Origin: Bacteroidetes bacterium GWF2_40_14
GTDB taxonomy: Bacteria; Bacteroidota; Bacteroidia; Bacteroidales; UBA932
Reading direction: 5' to 3'
Assembly: GCA_001769195.1 (NCBI GenBank)
Contig: MEOK01000034.1
Span: 1 to 64,000 of the forward strand
DNA length: 64,000 nucleotides
Shown one piece after another: positions 6,547 to 19,564 of the stretch (position 1 is its first letter; every line of letters starts with the position of its first letter). Both the position numbers and the translations under genes were made by a program. Below the pieces are notes generated by a model that had not been told where the DNA came from, did not search any database, and saw only the letters and a program-made list of their open reading frames with translations.

Positions 6547-8580
6547 ATGGAAAAGTCTTTTATTGAATTTTTTAACCTTATTGGCGTTTTAGCTATTGCG
6601 CTTTTCCCTTTTTTAAAGACAAAGGGGAGGGGTTTCATAACTTTAGGTGTAATAACAGTTCAGGTGATAATAAGTTCGTTTGTTGCATTTTCTGTTTTTA
6701 CAAATGGTGTGGTGCTTTTCACATATCCCGGTTCGTTCGTTACCGGCCAGATTCCCGTGAGGATAGACTACCTGTCGGCGTGGTTCATGCTTATCTTAAA
6801 CTTTACATTTCTAACCGGAGCCTGGTACGGCCTCCATTACATGAAAAAATACAAAGATCAGACCGACAATCTGGCTTTGCACGCGACGGCTTTTATACTT
6901 CTATATACTTCTATAATTGATATTTGTCTGTTTCAGAATGGTCTGGTGCTTTTGGTTGTATGGGAGATAATGGCGCTCAGCTCTTTTATTACAATAATTT
7001 TTGAGCACCAAAAAAAGGAGACATTAAAGGCGGGTATCAATTTTCTGATACAGTCTCATGTATGTATTCTATTCCTGACAATTGCGTTCATGTGGGTAAA
7101 GGTAAAAACCGGCTCCTTCGATTTTACAGCAATCACTGAATATACTTCGGCAGAACCTGCAATCACCGGCATTGGACTCTTTCTTTTTTTCTTTTTCGGT
7201 TTTGCAATCAAGGCGGGCTTTGTACCATTCCACACATGGCTCCCTTTGGCCCATCCGGCTGCTCCTGCACATATTTCGGGTATTATGAGCGGGGTTATAA
7301 TAAAGATTGGAATTTACGGGATATTGAGAATGCTGTTGCTTATAAAGACGGACATGGTCTCCCTGGGATACTTTATTCTTGCAATTTCGGTAATCACAGG
7401 TGTCTATGGAGTGATGCTGGCCATAGTACAACACAACCTTAAAAAGCTTTTAGCATATCATAGCATTGAAAATATTGGAATAATAGGAATTGGCATTGGT
7501 CTGGGCTGCCTTGGCCTTGGCTATGACAGTCAGATACTTATTGTGTGTGGTTTTGCCGGAGCCTTGCTCCACACTCTCAACCACTCGCTTTTCAAGTCTC
7601 TGTTATTTTACTGTGCCGGTTATGTCTATCAGAAAACACATACTATGGATATTGAAAAGATGGGTGGTCTAATAAAACACATTCCCCGTACCGGTTATCT
7701 GTTTCTCATAGGGTCTCTTGCAATTTGCGGATTGCCTCCCTTTAACGGATTTGTATCTGAGTTCTTTATTTACACTGGATTGTTCAACGGCCTCCAATCA
7801 AATGACTTTTTATTCATTATGGCTCTCATCTTCTCAATTCTGGGTCTGGTGATTATTGGCGGCCTTGCACTAATCTGCTTTACAAAGGCCTTTGGGATTA
7901 TCTTTTTGGGGACTTCCCGAGATTCCGAAAAGAGGAGCTTTTCCAAAGAAAAACCGAGGAAATTTTTCCCTTTGTACATTATTGCCATTACTATTTTAAT
8001 AATCGGCCTGTTCCCTGTTATACTTGCACCTGCACTTTTGAAAATCACTCATTTGTACATGCCGGTAGCAGTAATACCGGTAGCTCCTGCTTTTACTGAA
8101 ATTCTTGGTAACCTTACCTCTGTTGGCTGGTACTCTCTTGGATTTATTGCATTGACAGCTCTGCTATATTCAATCAGACATTTTTTAACTTCAAGGCGAG
8201 CCCATACCCTTGAACCTACCTGGGGTTGTGGATATACGGGTGATACCGCAAAGATGCAGTACACTGCCTCCTCTTTTATCCGCTCATACCGGAAACTAGC
8301 AGGTTCGTTTCTAATGATTGATAAAGAAAAAAGCGAAGCGTCAGGTTTGTATCCATCGTATATAAATCAGGAGACCCATCCCGGCGACAGGGTGGAGAAC
8401 TGGCTTATAGACAAGCCCTTGCATTTGATAAGAAGATTTTTGAACAGATTTGTGTTTCTGCAAAATGGCAATATTCAGGCATATATCCTTTACGGGTTTA
8501 TATTTATAGGGCTGGTTATAATGGTTCCGGTTATTATAGAGAAGATAGCAGTGTTTTATAACTTTCTAAACCAACTTTAA
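6547..8580 (+). CDS. hyfB: Hydrogenase-4 component B-like proton-conducting membrane subunit (NuoL/M family)
   Basis: Antiporter-like subunit of a complex I/group 4 hydrogenase relative; it would move protons or Na+ across the cytoplasmic membrane. Its 677 residues equal the length of E. coli HyfB. About 16 hydrophobic segments are seen. Proton_antipo_M motifs include a WEIMALSSF glutamate (~residue 140), the FHTWLPLAHPAAPAHISG segment with its flanking lysine, and a central HNLKKLLAYHSIENIG. The C-terminal region PTWGCGYTGDTAKMQYTASSF is typical of HyfB/HycC and is absent from NuoL. First gene of the operon; next gene follows after 1 bp. The role as a pump is by family; direction and ion are not known. 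Confidence 0.9.
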   Translation: MEKSFIEFFNLIGVLAIALFPFLKTKGRGFITLGVITVQVIISSFVAFSVFTNGVVLFTYPGSFVTGQIPVRIDYLSAWFMLILNFTFLTGAWYGLHYMKKYKDQTDNLALHATAFILLYTSIIDICLFQNGLVLLVVWEIMALSSFITIIFEHQKKETLKAGINFLIQSHVCILFLTIAFMWVKVKTGSFDFTAITEYTSAEPAITGIGLFLFFFFGFAIKAGFVPFHTWLPLAHPAAPAHISGIMSGVIIKIGIYGILRMLLLIKTDMVSLGYFILAISVITGVYGVMLAIVQHNLKKLLAYHSIENIGIIGIGIGLGCLGLGYDSQILIVCGFAGALLHTLNHSLFKSLLFYCAGYVYQKTHTMDIEKMGGLIKHIPRTGYLFLIGSLAICGLPPFNGFVSEFFIYTGLFNGLQSNDFLFIMALIFSILGLVIIGGLALICFTKAFGIIFLGTSRDSEKRSFSKEKPRKFFPLYIIAITILIIGLFPVILAPALLKITHLYMPVAVIPVAPAFTEILGNLTSVGWYSLGFIALTALLYSIRHFLTSRRAHTLEPTWGCGYTGDTAKMQYTASSFIRSYRKLAGSFLMIDKEKSEASGLYPSYINQETHPGDRVENWLIDKPLHLIRRFLNRFVFLQNGNIQAYILYGFIFIGLVIMVPVIIEKIAVFYNFLNQL

Positions 8581-8581
8581 A

Positions 8582-9487
8582 ATGATTAGCTTTTTACTGA
8601 TATTACTGGCGAGCTTTTTCTTTATGGGAGTTGTTGTTAGGACAAAAAGCATTGCATCCGGAAGAAAGGGCCCGGGAATTTTTCAGCCCATGAAAGATAT
8701 ATTAAGGCTATTGAGAAAGGGGTCGGTCTACAGCAAGACTACAACCCTCATATTCAAGCTGGCCCCCGTGGCATATATATCATCTGTCTTAATGGCAATT
8801 CTTATGGTTCCGCACGGAAACAATCCAGGATTCATCTCTTTCGACGGTGATTTTGTAATGTTTGCTTATGTTCTGGCCTTTGGGAAGTTTATGATAATAA
8901 TCTCTGCACTTGACACAGGAAGCAGCTTCGAAGGAATGGGAGCGAGCAGGGAGGCACTCTACTCTATGCTTGTGGAGCCCGCCTTCTTTATTCTGATGGG
9001 ATCCTTTGCTTTATATACTGGTCGCACATCATTCTTCACCATTTTTAGCACACTTCACTATGGTTCGTATATCTCATATATGCTTGGTGCCTTGGCCACA
9101 TTCGTTTTTGTACTCATTGCTATGATTGAGAATAGCCGTATGCCGGTTGATGACCCAAAGACCCACCTGGAACTAACTATGATACACGAGGTTATGGTTC
9201 TGGATAACAGCGGATTCGATCTTGGGGTAATACAGTACACTTCGCATTTGAAGTTTGCCATGTATGGAGCCATAATCTCCAATTTTTTCATAGGCGTCCT
9301 GCCATTGTGGATATCCGTCCCTCTGTTTCTGGTGGTACAATTTGGCTTCGCGGTTACGGTTGGTGTTATTGAGTCCTTTATGGCAAGATTCAGAATGGGT
9401 CACAATCCGCAGTTTATTTTTATTCTGACCTCGGTATCGATGTTGATATTTTTTGGAGCACTTCTGGTTTTAGGAAAATTTTTGTAA
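8582..9487 (+). CDS. hyfC: Hydrogenase-4 component C-like subunit (NuoH family)
   Basis: Membrane subunit that docks the peripheral arm and carries the E-channel/quinone-side helices in complex I relatives. 301 residues with about eight transmembrane segments. Family landmarks seen: GSSFEGMGASREALYSMLVEPAFF (shown here as positions ~115-140; key residues Glu, Arg, Glu), and RMPVDDPKTHLELTMIHE (~180-197) with acidic residues conserved in NuoH/HycD. Translation probably coupled to hyfB, with 1 bp between the genes. Confidence 0.9.
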   Translation: MISFLLILLASFFFMGVVVRTKSIASGRKGPGIFQPMKDILRLLRKGSVYSKTTTLIFKLAPVAYISSVLMAILMVPHGNNPGFISFDGDFVMFAYVLAFGKFMIIISALDTGSSFEGMGASREALYSMLVEPAFFILMGSFALYTGRTSFFTIFSTLHYGSYISYMLGALATFVFVLIAMIENSRMPVDDPKTHLELTMIHEVMVLDNSGFDLGVIQYTSHLKFAMYGAIISNFFIGVLPLWISVPLFLVVQFGFAVTVGVIESFMARFRMGHNPQFIFILTSVSMLIFFGALLVLGKFL

Positions 9488-9498
9488 CAGATTACTTT

Positions 9499-10128
9499 AT
9501 GATTGATATACTATTGATAGCATTGGCAATGACGCTGCTCTACATGAGCATCGCCAACAGGCTGCATACATATCTGAGGATTCTGGTACTTCAAGGTTTT
9601 ATTCTTTTTGGGGCCACATATCTCACCCTAACAGATGTAAATACAGTCAATCTTTTACTTATAATGCTTGAAACGATTGTTTTCAAGGCTATTGCAGTGC
9701 CCTGGTTCATGAACTACATTATAAAACGCAACAAGATATCACGTTCTGCAGAACCATATCTGCCCTATTTTGTATCGTTGCTTATAGTTACAATCATTAT
9801 TGTGCTTGCTATAATATTGTCGAGTTCCATAAAGGATGCAAACCTGGACAAGACATATTTTGTTGTTGCACTCTCTACTATGTTTACAGGATTGTACCTC
9901 ATAGTCTCACGAAAGAAAATTATTACACATGTTGTAGGTTATCTGGTAATTGAAAACGGAGTATTTGTGCTCTCCCTTGCTGTTGGCAACGAGATGCCTA
10001 TGCTTGTAAACCTTGGAATAATGCTGGACATATTTGCCAGCGTACTCATACTTGGAATTTTCTTTAATAAAATAGGGGACGTTATTAAAAACCCCGATGT
10101 CGACCTTTTAAATACCCTGAGAGACTGA
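9499..10128 (+). CDS. hyfE: Hydrogenase-4 component E-like membrane subunit (NuoK-related)
   Basis: 209-residue membrane protein with about six or seven hydrophobic segments, close to the 216 residues of E. coli HyfE. The C-terminal half carries the NuoK-like part (GYLVIENGVFVLSLAV, with a membrane glutamate) expected in the proton-path E-channel. It sits between hyfC and hyfF as in hydrogenase-4 operons. Small spacing on both sides (11 and 5 bp) supports a single transcript. Confidence 0.85.
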   Translation: MIDILLIALAMTLLYMSIANRLHTYLRILVLQGFILFGATYLTLTDVNTVNLLLIMLETIVFKAIAVPWFMNYIIKRNKISRSAEPYLPYFVSLLIVTIIIVLAIILSSSIKDANLDKTYFVVALSTMFTGLYLIVSRKKIITHVVGYLVIENGVFVLSLAVGNEMPMLVNLGIMLDIFASVLILGIFFNKIGDVIKNPDVDLLNTLRD

Positions 10129-10133
10129 TAATT

Positions 10134-11570
10134 ATGATAATAGGAGCGTTTTTGGCAGGAGTTTTATTGATATGCGGTTGTCTGATATCCAACCGTAATA
10201 AATTTGTCAACTATCTTCTGGTTGTACTCTTTGGTATTATGCTTCTGGCATTTGGAGCATATCAGTACAACAACCTAAACACAATACAGCTCTCATTTTT
10301 CAAATCCGACTCATTGGGCATTCTGCTTTTGCTGACACTCTGTTTTATATCGGTACCTGTCCTTTTTCACAGTTACAGGTACATAGAGAAATTCAATCCT
10401 GACGAGACACCCCGTTCCCGCGGTCTATTCTTTGCTGCGATGGTTCTACTGATCTCTGCATGTGGGGTGGCATATCTTTCAAACCATATAGCAGTAACCT
10501 GGATATTTGTGGAGCTGACAACTCTTAGTGCTTCGGTTCTGATATACCATCACAGGAACATCCGGGCGCTTGAAGGTGTGTGGAAGTATGTATTCATCTG
10601 TGCCATAAGTATTACGTTTATATATGTTGGCATCCTTTTCCTTAGCCTTTCTCTAAAACAAGCAGGAATTGACGATATGTCCTTCGATTCAATAAGGGCA
10701 AATTACAACAAGCTTAACCTTTTTTGGCTAAAGCTGTCGTTTCTGTTCATCTTTACAGGGTTCACAGCCAAATTGGGGCTTGTGCCAATGTTCACTGCCG
10801 GCGTAGATGCCAAGGACAAAGCTCCTGCTCCTGCAGGGGCATTGCTTGCAAGCATACTAATGAACCTTGGATTTGTCGGAATTTACAGGGTATATGCAAT
10901 AATAGCCCATACTCCACTGCACAGCTGGGCAAATACGGTTATAATAATTGCAGCGTTGTTATCTGTTTTTGTATCTGCGGTTTATATGACCCGTATAAGA
11001 AACATAAAGAGGATGTTGGCATATTCGGGTATAGAGCATATGGGGCTGGTGATGCTTGGTCTTGCTGCCGGAGGTGTAGGAGTATATGCGGCAATCTTGC
11101 ATATTATACTCCATACACTGGTAAAACCGGCTCTTTTTCTTCAGTATAATCAGATTTACTGGGTCTTCCAAAGCAAAAGCATTTACGATGTGGGCAACTA
11201 TTTCAAATATAACAAGACAGGGGCGATTGTTGTTTTACTGGCCTTCATTTCCGCTACTGCTATGCCTCCTTCCGGATTGTTTGTGAGCGAGTTCCTTATT
11301 TTCCAGGCTCTTTTCCAGGCTCATTACATACTTATACTCGTTACCGTTCTCATATTGTTGACATTAATTATCTGGGGATTCGGCTCAAACACCTTTAAAT
11401 TACTCTTTTCCCCTTCTCCTGAGGCTATGGATAAAAGTACAATTCCCGAAATAAACCCATGGGAATCGTTCAGTCAGTATGTTTTGCTGGCAGTTGCTGT
11501 CTATATTGCATACAATCCGCCGCAAAGATTTGTCGAACTTATACAGGATGCGGTAAAACTAATACAGTAA
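10134..11570 (+). CDS. hyfF: Hydrogenase-4 component F-like antiporter subunit (NuoN/NuoM family)
   Basis: Second antiporter-like pump subunit, 478 residues and about 14 transmembrane helices. Seen: AVTWIFVELTTLSASVLIY with the helix-5 glutamate (~125), the helix-7 lysine region GFTAKLGLVPMFTAGVDAKDKAPAPAG (~210-235; key Lys and Pro), and NIKRMLAYSGIEHMGLV (~290-307). This pattern is the standard Proton_antipo_M signature. Four bases separate it from hyfG. Together with HyfB it gives the complex two potential ion-translocation modules. Confidence 0.88.
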   Translation: MIIGAFLAGVLLICGCLISNRNKFVNYLLVVLFGIMLLAFGAYQYNNLNTIQLSFFKSDSLGILLLLTLCFISVPVLFHSYRYIEKFNPDETPRSRGLFFAAMVLLISACGVAYLSNHIAVTWIFVELTTLSASVLIYHHRNIRALEGVWKYVFICAISITFIYVGILFLSLSLKQAGIDDMSFDSIRANYNKLNLFWLKLSFLFIFTGFTAKLGLVPMFTAGVDAKDKAPAPAGALLASILMNLGFVGIYRVYAIIAHTPLHSWANTVIIIAALLSVFVSAVYMTRIRNIKRMLAYSGIEHMGLVMLGLAAGGVGVYAAILHIILHTLVKPALFLQYNQIYWVFQSKSIYDVGNYFKYNKTGAIVVLLAFISATAMPPSGLFVSEFLIFQALFQAHYILILVTVLILLTLIIWGFGSNTFKLLFSPSPEAMDKSTIPEINPWESFSQYVLLAVAVYIAYNPPQRFVELIQDAVKLIQ

Positions 11571-11573
11571 GAG

Positions 11574-13046
11574 ATGAGATACACTTCCATATATAACAAT
11601 CAGTCTATATCCTTGAACGATATCCCGGAACTTGGGTATACTGAGTTTCTGAATGTCAATTGCGGGTTGTTGTCGGAAAATCCTCAACGGCACTGTGTAA
11701 ATTTCTTCGGATATAAAACAGGAGAGGTTGTAAGGTTATTATGCTGCATTGCAGATGATACTACACATCAAATATATCTCTCATCTTCCATCATTGAACC
11801 TGATTCAAGTCTGCCGTCATTTACTGCGCAAAACCACAATTTTGAAAAATTTGAGCGGGAGATTCATGAGAACTTTGGCATTAAATACTCAGACCATCCA
11901 TGGCTGAAACCATACAGAAAAACTGAAAACTATACATTTCTAAGGTCTGAAAGCGAGGAGTTGAATGAGGTGGGTGTGGGGCCAATACATGCAGGAATCA
12001 TTGAGCCCGGACACTTCAGGTTCATTTGTAACGGGGAACAGATTATGCATCTGGAAATTCAACTGGGTTACCAGCATCGTGGGATTGAACAGTTGTTCCT
12101 GCAGAAGAAAAAATTACTGGAACGTACAACTCTTGCAGAAAACATAGCAGGGGATACCACGGTCGGCCATACCACAGCATTTGTGAACCTGTGGGAGAGC
12201 CTTTGCGGATATACTCCGGATATCTCTCTTGATTTTTCCAGAACGCTGGCTCTTGAGCTTGAACGGATAGCAGTTCACACAGGCGACATGGCAGCCATTT
12301 GCGGAGATATTGCCTATCAGCTTGGCAACTCAGTTTATGGCAGACTACGTACACCAATTGTAAACTTCCTGCAGGAGTGGGGAGGAAACCGTCTTGCAAA
12401 AGGACTAATAAGAGCAGGAAAAATCAACTATCCATTCACTAAGGAGCTTGCAACAAGATTGTCCGAAGTTTTCCAACAGTTTGAACCCGATTTCGATGAG
12501 ATATCAGAAAAGCTCTTTAAGCTACCAAGTGCCCTCTCCCGAATGGAGAAAACAGGAATAGTAAGTTACGAGGAGGTGGTTGAGATAGGAACAGTGGGCA
12601 TGTCTGCGAGAATGAGCGGTCTTAACAGGGATATACGCACCTCACACCCGTTTTGTCTTTATGGGTCTGTAATTGAGCATAATCCGGTGCTTAAACGACA
12701 TGGCGACGTATATTCGAGGGTGCAGATAAGGAAGGAGGAGATAAAGCAATCGATAACCTATATTAAGAAACTTCTAGCGGATGTTCCTGATTTTAAAAAA
12801 CCGGAGAATATTTTATTGACCCCTGCCGGTGGAAAGTTTGTTCTCACTCTTGTAGAGGGATGGCGGGGAGAGATATGCCACTGTGCAATAACCGACAACT
12901 CAGGCAATCTGATCCTCTACAAAATAAAGGACCCTTCGCATCACAACTGGATGGCACTGGCGCAGTCAGTGAGAAACAACGAGATATCAGATTTTCCGGT
13001 ATGTAACAAGAGCTTTAATTTGTCGTACTGCGGGAATGATTTGTAA
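11574..13046 (+). CDS. hyfG: HyfG-like large subunit (NuoC-NuoD fusion) lacking all NiFe-ligand cysteine motifs
   Basis: 490 residues: a NuoC-like N-terminal domain (~1-120) and a NuoD/NiFe-hydrogenase large-subunit domain (~130-490, with GPIHAGIIEPGHFRF and LGYQHRGIEQLF). In true group 4 hydrogenases the next segment carries CxxC (R-V-C-G-I-C-G...); here it reads ENIAGDTTVGHTTAF (~186-200), with no cysteine. The C-terminal DPCxxC motif is replaced by NLSYCGNDL, leaving one unpaired cysteine. The Ni-Fe site therefore cannot form in the known way. By family this is an 'Ehr' subunit (energy-converting-hydrogenase-related). The natural C-terminus seems intact; a repeat-flanked insertion starts 5 bp after the stop. 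Confidence 0.88.
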   Translation: MRYTSIYNNQSISLNDIPELGYTEFLNVNCGLLSENPQRHCVNFFGYKTGEVVRLLCCIADDTTHQIYLSSSIIEPDSSLPSFTAQNHNFEKFEREIHENFGIKYSDHPWLKPYRKTENYTFLRSESEELNEVGVGPIHAGIIEPGHFRFICNGEQIMHLEIQLGYQHRGIEQLFLQKKKLLERTTLAENIAGDTTVGHTTAFVNLWESLCGYTPDISLDFSRTLALELERIAVHTGDMAAICGDIAYQLGNSVYGRLRTPIVNFLQEWGGNRLAKGLIRAGKINYPFTKELATRLSEVFQQFEPDFDEISEKLFKLPSALSRMEKTGIVSYEEVVEIGTVGMSARMSGLNRDIRTSHPFCLYGSVIEHNPVLKRHGDVYSRVQIRKEEIKQSITYIKKLLADVPDFKKPENILLTPAGGKFVLTLVEGWRGEICHCAITDNSGNLILYKIKDPSHHNWMALAQSVRNNEISDFPVCNKSFNLSYCGNDL

Positions 13047-13056
13047 TGGGTTAATT

Positions 13057-13120
13057 TGCTAATATGCTAATGTGCTAATATGCTAATATGCTAATATGCT
13101 AATATGCTAATATGCTAATG
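13057..13120 (+). repeat. Upstream octamer array (8 x 8 bp, TGCTAATA/G)
   Basis: Eight contiguous units of TGCTAATA or TGCTAATG, with no interruptions, between the hyfG stop and the four-helix-bundle gene. Two degenerate units (agggaata, tgttaatt) continue to 13136. Confidence 0.95.
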
Positions 13121-13145
13121 AGGGAATATGTTAATTTGGGGAGAG

Positions 13146-13502
13146 ATGGAGAAGAAGAATGTGGTATTGGAGAAGAGTATGGAGTTTGCATTGGAGATTA
13201 TTGAGTATGCAGAGACACTTGAAGAGAAAAGGAAATATGTAGTAGCAAATCAGTTACTCAAATCTGGGACTTCGATTGGAGCAAATATAAGAGAGGCGCA
13301 GTCGGCAGAAAGCCGACAGGATTTTATTCATAAGATTAAAATAGCTGCAAAAGAAGCGCAGGAAACAGAATATTGGTTAATGCTATGTAATCGGTCAGAG
13401 AATTATCCTTCAAATAGTTCATTGCCGAAGAAATTGGATGAGATACAAAGATTGATTTCAAGCATTATAAGTACGGCAAAAAAAGGGGGGGTAATGTGCT
13501 AA
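13146..13502 (+). CDS. Four-helix-bundle protein (23S rRNA-intervening-sequence / S23 family)
   Basis: 118 residues, all helical. The start at 13146 (MEKKNVVLEKS) is preceded by a GA-rich ggggagag, and is preferred over an in-frame ATG 18 bp upstream that lies in the degenerate octamers. Family landmarks are seen: F-A-x-x-I-I (..SMEFALEIIEY), the VANQLLKSGTSIGANIREAQSA segment with S-G-T-S-I-x-A-N-x-x-E-A (~40-60), F-x-x-K-x-x-I-A-x-K-E-A-x-E-T-x-Y-W-L (~67-85). The protein is thought to bind nucleic acid; Avd homologues form pentameric barrels. The TAA stop lies inside the first downstream octamer, so gene and repeats form one unit. Confidence 0.9.
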   Translation: MEKKNVVLEKSMEFALEIIEYAETLEEKRKYVVANQLLKSGTSIGANIREAQSAESRQDFIHKIKIAAKEAQETEYWLMLCNRSENYPSNSSLPKKLDEIQRLISSIISTAKKGGVMC

Positions 13503-13560
13503 TGGGTTAATGTGCGAATGTGCTAATTTGCTAATGGGTTAATTTGCTAATGGGTTAATT
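13497..13560 (+). repeat. Downstream octamer array (8 degenerate 8-bp units)
   Basis: Eight contiguous octamers of the same family and orientation as the upstream array (TGCTAATG, GGTTAATG, TGCGAATG, TGCTAATT, TGCTAATG, GGTTAATT, TGCTAATG, GGTTAATT). The first contains the stop codon of the four-helix-bundle gene. Confidence 0.9.
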
Positions 13561-13614
13561 TGGCGATTATAAATTGACGGTAAAACATTTTAAAAAGCCT
13601 CTAAAAAACAACTA

Positions 13615-13737
13615 ATTAGCACACTAGCATATTCGCAAATTAAATAATTAAGAAATCATTAGCACACTAGCATATTAGCAAATTAAATAATTAAGAAATC
13701 ATTAGCACACTAGCATATTAGCAAATTAAATAATTAA
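13615..13737 (-). repeat. Three tandem 43-bp direct repeats holding inverted octamers
   Basis: Units at 13615-13657, 13658-13700 and 13701-13737 (the last is cut to 37 bp). Unit 1 differs from unit 2 by one base. Each begins with the reverse complement of the octamers (attagcacactagcatatt) and ends in an AT-rich tail. The array stops one base before the hyfI start codon, so the leader of hyfI is formed by the element. Confidence 0.95.
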
Positions 13738-13738
13738 A

Positions 13739-14512
13739 ATGTTAGACAATTTCAAAATAATGTGGCACCAGGGAAAGCAATTCATTCCCGATGTAACAAC
13801 TGCAAAGGTTCCGGGTATTTTCCGGGGAAGGCCCGTCATCTCAAATGCCAGTGTAGATGTTGTGCGGTTGGTTGATTTGTGTCCGACAAGGGCAATAGCA
13901 TCAGGAGCAGGTGCCGGAATTGGAACAGGTGTCAGTATAGATTTAGGCAAGTGTACCTTTTGCGGTGAGTGTGCAGTTCAATTTCCGGAAAAGATAAAAT
14001 TTACAGACGATTATAAATTGTCCACCAACGAGCGTGAGCGGTTGATTATAAGAGAGGGGGCGGAGAATCCAATTATTGTGAATCCTGCAACTGTCCGTAA
14101 GGAAATTCACCGGATGTTTGGAGGCTCTCTTAAGCTCAGGCAGGTTTCGGCAGGGGGTGACAACAGCTGCGAACTGGAACTAAATGCTGCAAACAATGTT
14201 CAGTTCGACATGAGCCGGTTCGGGATTGATTTTGTTGCTTCACCCCGTCATGCCGACGGCATAATCATTACAGGCCCCATTACAAAAAATATGGCCGGGG
14301 CACTGGAAATTTGCTATAATGCAATTCCAGACCCCAAAATCATAATCCTTGCAGGGACCGATGCTATAAGCGGTGGTATTTTTGCCGACAGTCCGGAGTT
14401 AAACAGGGAATTTATTGATAAACATCACATTGACCTCTATATTCCGGGTAATCCTGTGCACCCGCTCACATTTATCAATGGTATTCTGAGTCTGCTTTCA
14501 AAAAATATCTGA
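13739..14512 (+). CDS. hyfI: HyfI-like small subunit: degenerate ferredoxin domain fused to a cysteine-depleted NuoB domain
   Basis: 257 residues. The N-terminal ~105 resemble HycF/NuoI ferredoxin subunits (FRGRP start). Only LCP (~47) and CTFCGEC (~72-78) remain, enough for one [4Fe-4S] cluster; the other cluster's first three Cys are gone and the last is Phe (AVQFP). Residues ~110-257 are NuoB-like (RFGIDFVASPRHADGIIITGP). Of the four cysteines for the proximal cluster, CxxC is DxxC (DNSC, ~143), the third is Asp (AGTDA, ~206) and the fourth Asn (PGNPV, ~239). Electron transfer to the large subunit by the usual path looks lost. No Shine-Dalgarno is visible; the leader is the 43-bp repeat. 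Confidence 0.85.
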   Translation: MLDNFKIMWHQGKQFIPDVTTAKVPGIFRGRPVISNASVDVVRLVDLCPTRAIASGAGAGIGTGVSIDLGKCTFCGECAVQFPEKIKFTDDYKLSTNERERLIIREGAENPIIVNPATVRKEIHRMFGGSLKLRQVSAGGDNSCELELNAANNVQFDMSRFGIDFVASPRHADGIIITGPITKNMAGALEICYNAIPDPKIIILAGTDAISGGIFADSPELNREFIDKHHIDLYIPGNPVHPLTFINGILSLLSKNI

Positions 14513-15871: not shown

Positions 15872-17275
15872 GTGAAAACGTCAGTGAAATTTATATTAAA
15901 CGGCACTCCGGTAGAAATTGATTTTATAAAGGAAAAGCTGCTGTTCCCTCATATGACAGTCATGGATTACCTCCGTGAACACGCCCATCTTACCGGGACC
16001 AAGGAGGGGTGCGGGATTGGAGATTGTGGTGCATGTACTGTATGCCTTGCAGAGAGAGATGTTTTCGGTAACACTGTAATCTCGTCTGTAAACGGATGCC
16101 TCATTATGCTCGGAATGTTGGATAACAAGCACCTGATTACAATTGAGGGGGTTGCAAAAAACGGAAAGTTACATCTGGTTCAGCAGAGCCTGGTAGAAAA
16201 AAGGGGTTCTCAATGTGGCTTCTGTTCTCCCGGAATGGTAATGTCGGCCTATGCCCATTACCTCAACAAAAAACCATTTACCAGATCATCAATCGAAAGT
16301 TCACTCTCCGGGAATCTGTGCAGATGCACAGGGTATGAAAGTATTTTTCAGGCACTTATTGATGTGGAAAAATATGAGAGAATAGAGGAGAATCCGGAAT
16401 TGCCGGAAAATTCAAGAGAGGAGCTCTTTGTTGAGAAAAATGGAAGTGTGTATATAAAACCACTTGACTTACAATCGCTTCTTAAATACAAAAGATGGTA
16501 TCCGCAATACACTTTAGTATCTGGTGCCAGTGACCTTAGCGTTAAGTATAAAACGGAACATCCAGCTAGTGTATCACTTATAGACATTTCTGATATTGAG
16601 GAGTTGAAAGGGGTCACTATAAACAAAGATAGTCTGACAATAGGAGCCAACGCCTCAATCGAATCGGCAAAAGAGGCTCTGTCTGTCTATTATCCGCAAT
16701 TGTCGGAATACCTCTCTACATTTGCATCTCTTCAAATCAGAAACAAGGCATCTATGGCAGGCAGTGTTGCCGGAGCATCTCCGGTTGGAGACATTATGCC
16801 TCTTTTGCTTGCACTAAGGGCCGGGATAGTACTTACTTCAGATAAATCCAGCCGTTCAATTGAGAGTCGTAATTTCAACACTGCATATCGCAGGCACATA
16901 ATGGCAGATGATGAGATAATAGAAAAATTCATCTTACCGCTACCATCTGAGAGACATAAATTATTCTGCAGCAAGCAGTCTAAAAGAAAGGATATGGACA
17001 TATCTTCGATGACCTTCTGTATTAGCCTTTCTATTGATAATGGAATAATTAAGGATGTATCTACAGGTTTCGGAGGTATGGCTGCGGTTCCATGTGCTTC
17101 CGGCAAGATTGAGGAATTTCTGACAGGCAGGCCATTTACAGAAGATACTTTTATTAAGGCAAAACCACTTGTAAGGCAGGAGTTCAGTACAATATCTGAT
17201 ATAAGAGGCTCCGCAGAATATAGATTGCTTGTAGCAGAGAACCTGCTTATTAAGTGCTTTAATGATCTAAAATAG
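15872..17275 (+). CDS. xdhA: Xanthine dehydrogenase-type small subunit ([2Fe-2S] and FAD domains)
   Basis: Electron-transfer subunit of a molybdenum hydroxylase. The start is a GTG (MKTSVKFILNG). Residues ~1-85 are the plant-type [2Fe-2S] domain with GCGIGDCGACTVC (~46-58); ~90-165 are the second [2Fe-2S] domain with QCGFCSPG (~114-121) and LCRCTGY (~149-155); ~185-467 are the FAD-binding domain, with SGASDLSVKYK and AGSVAGASPVGDIMPLL. 467 residues fit bacterial XdhA with both modules fused. It transfers electrons from the Mo subunit encoded 6 bp downstream to FAD and NAD+ or another acceptor. Confidence 0.9.
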   Translation: MKTSVKFILNGTPVEIDFIKEKLLFPHMTVMDYLREHAHLTGTKEGCGIGDCGACTVCLAERDVFGNTVISSVNGCLIMLGMLDNKHLITIEGVAKNGKLHLVQQSLVEKRGSQCGFCSPGMVMSAYAHYLNKKPFTRSSIESSLSGNLCRCTGYESIFQALIDVEKYERIEENPELPENSREELFVEKNGSVYIKPLDLQSLLKYKRWYPQYTLVSGASDLSVKYKTEHPASVSLIDISDIEELKGVTINKDSLTIGANASIESAKEALSVYYPQLSEYLSTFASLQIRNKASMAGSVAGASPVGDIMPLLLALRAGIVLTSDKSSRSIESRNFNTAYRRHIMADDEIIEKFILPLPSERHKLFCSKQSKRKDMDISSMTFCISLSIDNGIIKDVSTGFGGMAAVPCASGKIEEFLTGRPFTEDTFIKAKPLVRQEFSTISDIRGSAEYRLLVAENLLIKCFNDLK

Positions 17276-17281
17276 AACGAG

Positions 17282-19564
17282 ATGGATCAGTCATTAAAAA
17301 GAACGGCATCACATCTAAAAGGAGAGACCAGATATATTGACGATCTGGATAAGCCGAACAATGTTCTATACGGCTTTATCTACAGAAGTAATTTTGCTTA
17401 CGGAAAAATTGAAAAAATTGACATTGAAGAGGCAAAGAGAGTAAAAGATGTTTTCGCCATTCTTAGCTATAAGGATATTCCGGGGAAAAATTTCATGGGG
17501 GCGGTATTTGACGACGAACCTATTCTTGCCGAAGAGCATGTGGAATTTATAGGGCAGGCAATTTTGCTTATTGCAGCAAAGAGTAAATCAGCTGCTTTTG
17601 AGGCAATAACAAAGATTAAAGTCGATATTAAGGAGCTAGAACCGGTTCTGGATGTAGAAGAGTCATACACAAAAGGCAATTTTCCATTTGACCCTCTGCA
17701 CATTGTCAGTGGAGATGTAGAAGAGGGCTTCGCAAAATCTGATTTTGTCATTGAAGGAGTACTTAATACCGGTTGTCAGGAACACTTCTATCTGGAGACA
17801 CAAGCGGCAATGTCGGTTCCAAAACCTGACGGCACCATTCTGGTAAAGACATCGTCTCAGAACCCATCGGAGAACCAGCTTATAATATCTCATGCGCTCA
17901 AGTTGGAAAGCTCAAAAATTGAAGTTGTTACAGACATAATAGGAGGTGGATTCGGAGGTAAGGAGACCCAAAGTAACTGGTGTGCCGTTTGGACCTCACT
18001 TCTTGCAAACCATTGCGCCGTACCGGTTATTATGGTAATGGACAGGAGAGAAGACATGCTAATAACAGGCAAACGCCATCCTGTCAAAACCACTTATAAA
18101 GCAGGGTTCAACAAGAATGGGAGACTAAATGCATATAGCGCAAAATTCCTGTTTGACATAGGATTCAGTGCAGACCTCTCCAGATCAATAATTGAGAGGT
18201 CGTTGCTTCATCTGGACAACTCATACTACATTCCATCAGTCAAATGCGATTTATATCCATGCAGGACCAATAAACCATCCAACACAGCCTTCAGAGGGTT
18301 TGGCGCACCACAGTCAATAGCAGCAATTGAGTATGTAATGGAGGAGATATCCCGAGTTACCGGCATAGATGCTGCTGTTGTAAGGAACAGGAACTTCTAC
18401 GGTAAAAGTGTAAGAAACACCGCACCTTACGGACAAAAGATAAAAGACAACATCATAGGCGACCTTTATAAGGAACTTCTTAAAACTTCCGACTATAAAC
18501 AGAGAGTTAAGTCGTTGAAAGAGTTCAACAAGAGTTCAAAATGGAAAAAGAGAGGAATATCCATGGTGCCGGTCAAATTCGGAATTTCGTTCACTACGAG
18601 TTTTCTAAATCAGGGAGCTGCTTTGGTGAATATGTACAAGGATGGTTCGCTTGTTGTTCATCAGGGTGGTGTTGAAATGGGTCAGGGTTTGTACGATAAA
18701 ATGATGAATGTGGTCTCAAGGGAGTTTGGTATCACAAAAGAATCTGTGAGAATATGTTCTACAAACATATCTGTTATCCCAAACACATCTGCTACTGCTG
18801 CCTCAACAGGATCGGACATTAACGGACATGCAATAAAACTTGCGATTGACAGGTTGAAAAACAGGTTAAACGATTTTATCTCATTAAACTATTCCTGGGG
18901 CAAAGAGGATATAGTATGGGAAAACTCTTTCATATTCAGCAAAAAAAATCCTGAAATCAGATATCCAATATCAGAAATTATTAAAAATGCATATCTGGCA
19001 CAAGTAAGTCTCAGTGAGCAAGCCTACTATAAAACTCCCGGAATCCATTTCGACAGAGTGATTGCAAGAGGAAATCCTTTCTACTATTATGTCTTTGGCC
19101 TTTCTGTTAGTGAAGTTGAGGTTGATATGCTGACAGGGGCCCATAAGATTATTCGGACAGATATTCTTCACGATGTGGGAGAATCACTTGATAAGCTGAT
19201 AGATAAGGGACAGATAGAAGGGGCATTTGTTCAGTGTTCAGGATGGGCGACTATGGAGGAGTTGGTTTATAACAGCAAAGGGGCTCTGTTGACTGCCAGT
19301 CCGGATAGCTATAAGATTCCCGGTATAGCGGATATTCCTCAGGATTTCAGGGTGAATTTGTATGAAAAGAACCCTTTCAATGCCGGTATTTTGAAAAGCA
19401 GGGCAGTAGGTGAGCCACCATTCATATATGGTTTATCTGTCTGGTTGGCAATAAAAAATGCCCTCATATATTTTAATAAAAAGAGTTGCCGGCTCGATTT
19501 GCCTGCAACAAAGGAGAAAATACTAAAATGTGCATATTCATATGTGGAAAGCGATAAAAATTAA
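17282..19564 (+). CDS. xdhB: Xanthine dehydrogenase-type large subunit (molybdenum cofactor-binding)
   Basis: Catalytic subunit of 760 residues, normal for XdhB. Mo-pterin landmarks seen: GGGFGGKETQ (~222-231), NTAFRGFGAPQS (~338-349), EMGQGLYDKM (~464-473) and GEPPFIYGLSVWLAIKNA (~708-725), whose Glu is the catalytic base of the family. Substrate is probably a purine or other N-heterocycle; the motifs do not separate xanthine from related substrates. No XdhC-type cofactor-insertion gene is adjacent. The last 23 bp overlap the following membrane-protein gene. Confidence 0.9.
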   Translation: MDQSLKRTASHLKGETRYIDDLDKPNNVLYGFIYRSNFAYGKIEKIDIEEAKRVKDVFAILSYKDIPGKNFMGAVFDDEPILAEEHVEFIGQAILLIAAKSKSAAFEAITKIKVDIKELEPVLDVEESYTKGNFPFDPLHIVSGDVEEGFAKSDFVIEGVLNTGCQEHFYLETQAAMSVPKPDGTILVKTSSQNPSENQLIISHALKLESSKIEVVTDIIGGGFGGKETQSNWCAVWTSLLANHCAVPVIMVMDRREDMLITGKRHPVKTTYKAGFNKNGRLNAYSAKFLFDIGFSADLSRSIIERSLLHLDNSYYIPSVKCDLYPCRTNKPSNTAFRGFGAPQSIAAIEYVMEEISRVTGIDAAVVRNRNFYGKSVRNTAPYGQKIKDNIIGDLYKELLKTSDYKQRVKSLKEFNKSSKWKKRGISMVPVKFGISFTTSFLNQGAALVNMYKDGSLVVHQGGVEMGQGLYDKMMNVVSREFGITKESVRICSTNISVIPNTSATAASTGSDINGHAIKLAIDRLKNRLNDFISLNYSWGKEDIVWENSFIFSKKNPEIRYPISEIIKNAYLAQVSLSEQAYYKTPGIHFDRVIARGNPFYYYVFGLSVSEVEVDMLTGAHKIIRTDILHDVGESLDKLIDKGQIEGAFVQCSGWATMEELVYNSKGALLTASPDSYKIPGIADIPQDFRVNLYEKNPFNAGILKSRAVGEPPFIYGLSVWLAIKNALIYFNKKSCRLDLPATKEKILKCAYSYVESDKN

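Follow-up and report, generated by a model that had tools for sequence, protein, structure and literature searches.

The window analysed here, a 64,000-nt stretch of contig MEOK01000034.1 from Bacteroidetes bacterium GWF2_40_14, carries an operon, hyfB-C-E-F-G-I, encoding a membrane complex of the energy-converting hydrogenase-related (Ehr) type. The genome to which it belongs measures 3.36 Mb and is 97.5% complete. According to family scans, the operon subunits match hydrogenase-4, formate hydrogenlyase (FHL), or NDH-1/complex I families (table 1). A preliminary description of this DNA had reported the same layout. All its open reading frames (ORFs) are intact in the contig, but the span also holds an unrelated gene for a 23S rRNA intervening sequence protein (IVP). 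As predicted from alignments, the large subunit HyfG has no NiFe site, and the small subunit HyfI has lost the proximal cluster N2, whose former ligands form a conserved two-carboxylate site. Loci are designated below by L numbers and genomes by G numbers.

Table 1. Genes and ligand positions of the hyf operon in the window
Feature	Coordinates	Strand	Description
hyfB	6547..8580	+	NuoL/MrpD-type antiporter-like subunit, ND3-like C-terminal loop (C561)
hyfC	8582..9487	+	NuoH/ND1-like membrane anchor, conserved acidic residues
hyfE	9499..10128	+	NuoK-like small membrane subunit
hyfF	10134..11570	+	Second antiporter-like subunit
hyfG (ehrL)	11574..13046	+	Fused NuoC/NuoD-like large subunit, without NiFe cysteines
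23S-IVP four-helix-bundle gene, outside the complex	13128..13502	+	Between hyfG and hyfI, 8-nt repeats on both sides
hyfI (ehrS)	13739..14512	+	Ferredoxin module fused to NuoB-like module; without N2 cluster
HyfI C48 and C72, C75, C78, sole complete Fe-S ligand set left	13880..13972	+	
HyfI D141 and C144, ex-N2 ligands 1 and 2	14159..14170	+	From alignment
HyfI D208, ex-N2 ligand 3	14360..14362	+	From alignment
HyfI N238, ex-N2 ligand 4	14450..14452	+	From alignment

The NuoB-like module of HyfI matches MbhJ and HycG (predicted local distance difference test score, pLDDT, of the model 92.5). Where relatives read GCNGC, GAC, and GCP, HyfI reads GGDNSCELEL, AGTDAISGG, and PGNPVHP, and alignment to MbhJ and HycG places the N2 ligand positions at D141, C144, D208, and N238. 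One of the four cysteines is left, as the preliminary description had stated. The possibility of another HyfI, with the cysteines, at a different place in the genome was considered and rejected, the genome giving a single match.

Conservation across Bacteroidota was a check that the preliminary description had called for. Among 157 distinct Ehr small subunits, a count that leaves out rows without SPRH (complex I NuoB) or gapped at the ligand columns, 64 have all four cysteines (CCCC) and 93 are N2-less (62 DCDN, seven DADN, and others). We defined a switch column as one occupied by one residue in at least 90% of one set and by another in at least 90% of the other set. When 42 N2-bearing rows are compared with 55 N2-less rows (leaving out L022, from a separate lineage, L041, rows gapped at the ligand columns, and rows without HyfI on the locus), the only switch columns in HyfI are 141 (C to D), 208 (C to D), and 238 (C to N). 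Thresholds of 0.90, 0.85, and 0.80 all give these three columns and no others. In a set of 91 N2-less rows, which is without L022 and L208 here as in the ligand-free HyfI tree, the topology test, and the ferredoxin-pattern count given below, position 141 is acidic in 98.9% and position 208 in 96.7%. Exactly two acidic ex-ligand positions are present in 92 of the 93 N2-less proteins, the exception (L022/L153) having three. A non-acidic residue at 141 or 208 is found in L085 (ADDN), L088 (DDHS), L217 (DDHF), and L221 (DDNY), all of which have Asp at 144, a position that is acidic in just these four of the 91 rows. The compensating Asp has two origins on the HyfI tree, and covariation between 141/208 and 144 is therefore suggestive, as two pairs cannot reach significance. 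C144 itself is kept in only 70% of the 91 rows and so looks unconstrained. Residues found at this second ex-ligand position are C, A, N, V, G, Q, T, Y, H, and D, and those at the fourth N, A, S, F, and Y. Two carboxylates carry a charge of −2, equal to that of an oxidised [4Fe-4S]2+ cluster with four thiolates. Judged from these alignments, the N2 ex-ligands of the clade have become a conserved two-carboxylate site rather than decaying. Against this reading of the signature, the N2-less rows form one clade and are less diverse than the N2-bearing rows, so that clade-specific conservation alone is to be expected.

One proposal of the preliminary description was a new cofactor. The Asp/Asp/Asn site would then bind a hard metal ion or some other cofactor that replaces N2 functionally, which would agree with the lack of drift at positions 141 and 208, with the maintenance of the acid pair through 144 when one member is missing, and with the DCDD found in the separate lineage L153. 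The variation at the second and fourth ex-ligand positions is, however, loose for a metal site, and a hard divalent ion would carry no electrons. We consider this explanation unlikely.

Searching 99 relatives with HyfI returned a near-full-length Ehr-type match (E 1e-88 or better) in 20 genomes, the own genome included, and any match in 46. With HyfG, 296 genomes of the phylum gave 12 Ehr-type matches (E 1e-76 or better, own included) and any match in 264, the weaker of which seem to be complex I and similar proteins. Scanning GTDB contigs yielded at least 574 HyfG relatives, and 80 loci were kept. Of 295 genomes in the order of the window genome, 69 match HyfI at 1e-28 or better, and one of these matches is a complex I NuoB (G328, L180). 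Thirty loci from this search comprise 28 that are N2-less, one with all four cysteines (L190 of G618, whose long branch lies just outside the N2-less clade), and one of the separate lineage L181/L153. The N2-less loci of the named collection come from Bacteroidota (Bacteroidales, Flavobacteriales, Cytophagales, Saprospiraceae, and others; Acetofilamentum was checked), except L082, which is labelled Phycisphaerae. By this distribution, loss of N2 is a trait of a clade across several Bacteroidota orders and not a local defect. Misassembly or a frameshift, which the preliminary description had named as grounds for abandoning its claim, is ruled out by the occurrence of the N2-less pattern in dozens of other genomes. 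Loss of HyfI, considered for genomes without hyfI beside hyfG, was likewise rejected, as all eight genomes searched have the gene; in five of them, hyfI lies away from hyfG and is N2-less.

On a HyfG tree of 109 rows, the distinction between N2-less (53 rows) and N2-bearing sequences (43 rows) requires one change, and none of 500 shuffles was as low; the branch support is weak (31). The HyfI tree built without the ligand columns requires two changes, L033 (CCCC) nesting weakly inside the N2-less rows, and three when L022 and L208 are included. In an approximately unbiased (AU) test, a single N2-less clade was not rejected (p 0.888), and the likelihood with the 91 N2-less rows held together exceeded that of the free quick search. 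A single main loss of N2 is compatible with these results and probable. L153 (G069:C386), from a distant Ehr lineage, encodes a NuoB-only HyfI of 175 amino acids that has no ferredoxin module, and its contig ends just beyond hyfI. This lineage looks like an independent N2 loss, seen once. It is possibly an Ehr without any Fe-S cluster.

For all N2-less pairs with dS below 1, we estimated the ratio of nonsynonymous to synonymous substitution rates (dN/dS). In hyfI it is 0.037 (L003/L004), 0.057 (L003/L006), 0.042 (L004/L006), 0.093 (L009/L010), 0.085 (L073/L075), 0.054 (L074/L091), and 0.168 (L092/L105). In hyfG the values are 0.061 (L003/L004), 0.068 (L003/L006), 0.073 (L004/L006), 0.057 (L009/L010), 0.164 (L074/L091), 0.213 (L092/L105), 0.227 (L092/L107), and 0.340 (L105/L107), the higher of which indicate looser selection on HyfG in the Alistipes-like lineage. 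N2-bearing pairs gave 0.104 (L038/L039) and 0.043 (L113/L114) for hyfI and 0.086 (L113/L114) for hyfG. Both genes of the N2-less clade are, by these estimates, under purifying selection. That the locus is decaying or misassembled might be read from the missing cysteines and from the unrelated IVP gene inside the operon, but 93 distinct N2-less sequences and dN/dS values well below 1 leave this explanation next to no credibility.

The membrane arm was compared over 28–33 N2-less and 24–27 N2-bearing rows per subunit (HyfB 28/24, HyfC 30/24, HyfF 33/24). Residues kept at 90% or more in both sets are E140 (HycC E135), K222, K253, K299, and E405 (HycC E391) in HyfB, D111, E117, E124, E132, E183, D190, D191, E197, and E203 in HyfC, and E127, K213, K292, and K331 in HyfF. 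They include the pump residues of both antiporter subunits (HyfB E140, K222, K253, and E405; HyfF E127, K213, and K331), whose retention had been noted before and is borne out here. C561 of HyfB, corresponding to HycC Cys537 in the ND3-like loop, is present in 100% of both sets. Functional roles of the HycC and HycE residues are described in passages of PMC9474812.

HyfG, a fusion of NuoC-NuoD type, has its best solved relative, by sequence and by a Foldseek search with its model (pLDDT 88.1), in HycE of Escherichia coli FHL (7z0s_E). The absence of both NiFe motifs, already reported in the preliminary description, stands: the L1 region reads NIAGDTTVGH and the C-terminus, which aligns with the C-terminal cysteine region of HycE, reads NKSFNLSYCGNDL, and neither contains a CxxC. 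These pairs are also missing from every Ehr-type relative whose HyfG stretches were compared. The Ehr motifs VGPIHAG.IEPGHFRF, AGDT, WRGE, and NKS..LSY.G.DL are kept, 81 columns are conserved at 95% or more in both N2-bearing (42 rows) and N2-less (53 rows, as two of the 55 have no HyfG row) sets, and no switch column is found at 0.90 or 0.85, two weak ones appearing at 0.80 (positions 40 and 127). H139 is invariant in 40 rows and aligns with the HycE residue at chain position 200; we take it to be the counterpart of His188 in the HycE β1–β2 loop, assuming a numbering offset of 12. Cysteines at HyfG positions 41, 243, and 435 are common in N2-less and rare in N2-bearing sequences. As a new cysteine cluster they were rejected, since all three occur in 42 of the 53 N2-less rows but each has been lost independently.

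N2-bearing and N2-less Ehr share these HyfG motifs, so the function of the HyfG cavity seems independent of N2. HyfG might then perform non-redox catalysis or bind a ligand, for instance CO2 or bicarbonate, and thereby drive or sense ion transport; a CO2/bicarbonate reaction has been proposed for some complex I relatives. A SulP-type transporter gene lies directly downstream of hyfI in L085, L089, and L154, which include N2-less and N2-bearing loci (PF00916 tested on L085). This direct linkage was observed at just three loci, however, and no catalytic motif was recognised in HyfG, so that such a role appears quite improbable.

Among known systems, the complex corresponds to Ehr in combining Mrp/Nuo antiporter-like subunits with a NuoH-like anchor, and in having a large subunit akin to those of group 4 hydrogenases without the NiFe CxxC pairs. 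It departs from the usual Ehr in that the window HyfI has no proximal [4Fe-4S] ligands, although the published definition consulted does not demand such ligands of the small subunit. The absence of the L1 and L2 CxxC sets HyfG apart from group 4 [NiFe] hydrogenases. From respiratory complex I it differs in the lack of N2 ligands in the NuoB-like subunit and of NADH-module genes in the operon. HyfB resembles MrpA and MrpD of the Mrp cation/proton antiporters, but the MrpA–G set is absent from the operon and, unlike Mrp, the complex retains a complex-I-like soluble arm. On the 109-row tree, which contains neither true group 4 hydrogenases nor published reference Ehr, HyfG groups with Ehr-like sequences including one from Geobacter. 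The membrane-bound hydrogenase (MBH) of Pyrococcus furiosus (6cfw) is a further relative, MbhJ matching HyfI and MbhL matching HyfG. MBH has both NiFe and the proximal cluster, and the membrane-bound sulfane reductase MBS has the proximal cluster without NiFe. Among solved structures, FHL of E. coli (7z0s/7z0t) ranks first or second as a match to HyfG, HyfB, HyfC, and the NuoB module. Unlike the window complex, it has NiFe, the proximal cluster, two HycF clusters, and a formate dehydrogenase, as described in parts of PMC9474812, and its HycC has Leu208 where HyfB has K222.

As the preliminary description had stated, Ehr complexes without NiFe ligands have been published, with function given as unknown (passages of PMC6349859, PMC10284858, PMC10432482, PMC7304191), and Ehr complexes are reported in Geobacter, comammox Nitrospira, ammonia-oxidising archaea, and bacteria of the candidate phyla radiation (PMC7894505, PMC10284858, PMC10432482, PMC7304191). 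Geobacter ehr and its relatives share with the window operon a large subunit without NiFe cysteines, the ferredoxin-NuoB fusion, and antiporter-like subunits. L132 of Geobacter argillaceus, a match of the HyfG search, nevertheless has all four N2 cysteines, which the window clade has not, and from L132 we infer that the Geobacter Ehr treated in passages of PMC7894505 is N2-bearing. We found no report of N2 loss or of a carboxylate switch in Ehr in openly licensed full texts. The NiFe-less Ehr being already known, the N2-less form with its carboxylate pair is, on sequence grounds, a variant of Ehr.

The ferredoxin module of HyfI retains one complete cysteine quartet, C48 (from the CP of motif 1) with C72, C75, and C78 (the CxxCxxC of motif 2), which confirms the single [4Fe-4S] set seen earlier. 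By the usual ferredoxin scheme, these residues are the ligands of exactly one cubane. We presume the quartet to be of the N6a type, the distal cluster by the Thermus complex I assignment; one table entry of PMC9783039 could not be matched to it. All 155 rows that have a ferredoxin module, whether N2-bearing or N2-less, contain the quartet, which is the only Fe-S ligand set common to them. The two rows without it are L022, which has no module, and L208, where the module is missing because the contig ends. With the proximal cluster also lost, no electron route from this last cluster to HyfG is visible in the sequence, as the preliminary description had argued. The complex I electron relay is built like that of FHL. 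In the latter, as set out in parts of PMC9474812, electrons reach the large subunit via the proximal cluster, each step being shorter than 14 Å.

Ordinary electron transfer could persist if the geometry differed from that of complex I and electrons tunnelled directly from the last cluster to a HyfG-bound substrate. A single full ferredoxin set is found in 34 of the 64 N2-bearing Ehr, by a crude pattern that accepts a motif 2 with a terminal CP or CG as well and therefore overcounts two-set members, so that short or broken wires may be normal. By homology, however, the N2 site lies between the ferredoxin module and HyfG, and the FHL relay, with its proximal cluster, keeps each step within the distance given above, which makes direct tunnelling very unlikely.

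The HyfG cavity is left without a visible electron supply, yet its conserved residues are unchanged, and we therefore think that ion transport goes on in the absence of electron delivery to HyfG. Ion transport in this clade is probably driven or gated by something other than electrons arriving at a working site. The reading we favour, to which we assign a probability of about 0.4, is that the complex is an Ehr without an electron wire to its large subunit, in which the coupling and ion-transport machinery has been kept and which would operate as a gated channel or as a redox-sensed cation/proton exchanger driven by a gradient. The two carboxylates, with their net charge of −2, would take the electrostatic place of the oxidised N2 cluster, and the Asp pair would hold the HyfG/HyfI interface in an oxidised-like working state without electrons. 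In its most economical form, this model would have the complex run in the manner of an Mrp cation/proton exchanger on an existing Na+ or H+ gradient; it could also be a gated channel. The last cluster would sense redox state or pin the structure, and the HyfG cavity would bind a ligand or act as an allosteric gate. Of the three proposals in the preliminary description (a different redox reaction, a new cofactor, or a regulated ion channel), the last fits best with the sequence evidence. Two wider propositions may tentatively be advanced together, although we would not expect them to hold: that a member of the complex I superfamily works without electron transfer into the quinone/NiFe-type site, the carboxylate pair permanently mimicking the charge of oxidised N2, and that electrons reaching HyfG may not be what drives Ehr complexes in general, since the HyfG motifs are unchanged after N2 loss. 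A lineage that lacks N2 but has selected coupling loops, channel, and pump residues constitutes a natural experiment in which the parts that coupling requires are separated from those that electron transfer requires. The N2-less clade in this way bears on the function of Ehr complexes.

Several observations weigh against the exchanger or channel. HyfF has one switch column (G246/A). Genes resembling MrpB, C, E, F, or G were not recognised in the operon, and no pattern of replacement between Ehr and Mrp emerges, since Mrp is rare either way. The frequency of single ferredoxin sets among N2-bearing members counts against the simple view that Ehr always used a full wire, and Ehr geometry may for this reason differ from that of complex I. 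Finally, all eight ferredoxin cysteines are still present, as read from the sequences rather than by the crude pattern, in six N2-less members of the order to which the Cytophagales genome G399 belongs (L088, L216, L217, L219, L221, and L225), and this suggests that electron flow into the ferredoxin module still matters there. If the eight-cysteine state is ancestral, N2 was lost before the second ferredoxin cluster, an order that the trees do not settle.

These six members, like the invariance of the quartet, would be accounted for if the complex were redox-driven at the ferredoxin module, partners reducing and oxidising the remaining cluster and a conformational change coupling it to the membrane arm with no electrons passing to HyfG. 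Geobacter Ehr subunits are more abundant on formate than on hydrogen, according to sections of PMC7894505, in line with a redox drive. The HyfG motifs would then have no evident reason for conservation. Across 78 loci (naive ORFs, hyfG in 74), no non-hyf family occurs in more than seven, and a partner oxidoreductase was not recognised in any recurring neighbour family, although not every shared family was identified. We know of no precedent for a dead-end cluster driving a pump, and regard a drive at the ferredoxin module as doubtful.

Replacement of Mrp by Ehr was rejected. MrpG matches occur in nine of the 99 relatives, eight of them over the cut-off (one of 20 Ehr carriers vs. eight of 79 others), so Mrp is rare with or without Ehr, and the carrier G086 has both. 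The own genome gave no match to MrpG (PF03334), the one Mrp family searched genome-wide. It has two NqrB/RnfD-family matches, consistent with Rnf plus Nqr, but as a correlate Rnf/Nqr was discarded as uninformative, being present in 93 of the 99 relatives. L157, L162, and L132 carry two hyfB-like genes in addition to hyfF, possibly giving three antiporter-like subunits.

The IVP gene between hyfG and hyfI (13047–13738) has arrays of a TAATATGC-like 8-nt unit on both sides, and to the right of these arrays follows a partly complementary repeat with a spacing of 43 nt. A 37-nt repeat of the right flank (three mismatches or fewer) has three matches in the genome, all within this interval, and the gene with its repeats was not found in the loci of the relatives compared. 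Near the operon (15872–19564) lies a two-gene molybdenum hydroxylase resembling xanthine dehydrogenase, with a 2Fe-2S plus FAD subunit and a molybdenum subunit; an opposite-strand gene similar to a major facilitator superfamily transporter separates the pair from the operon.

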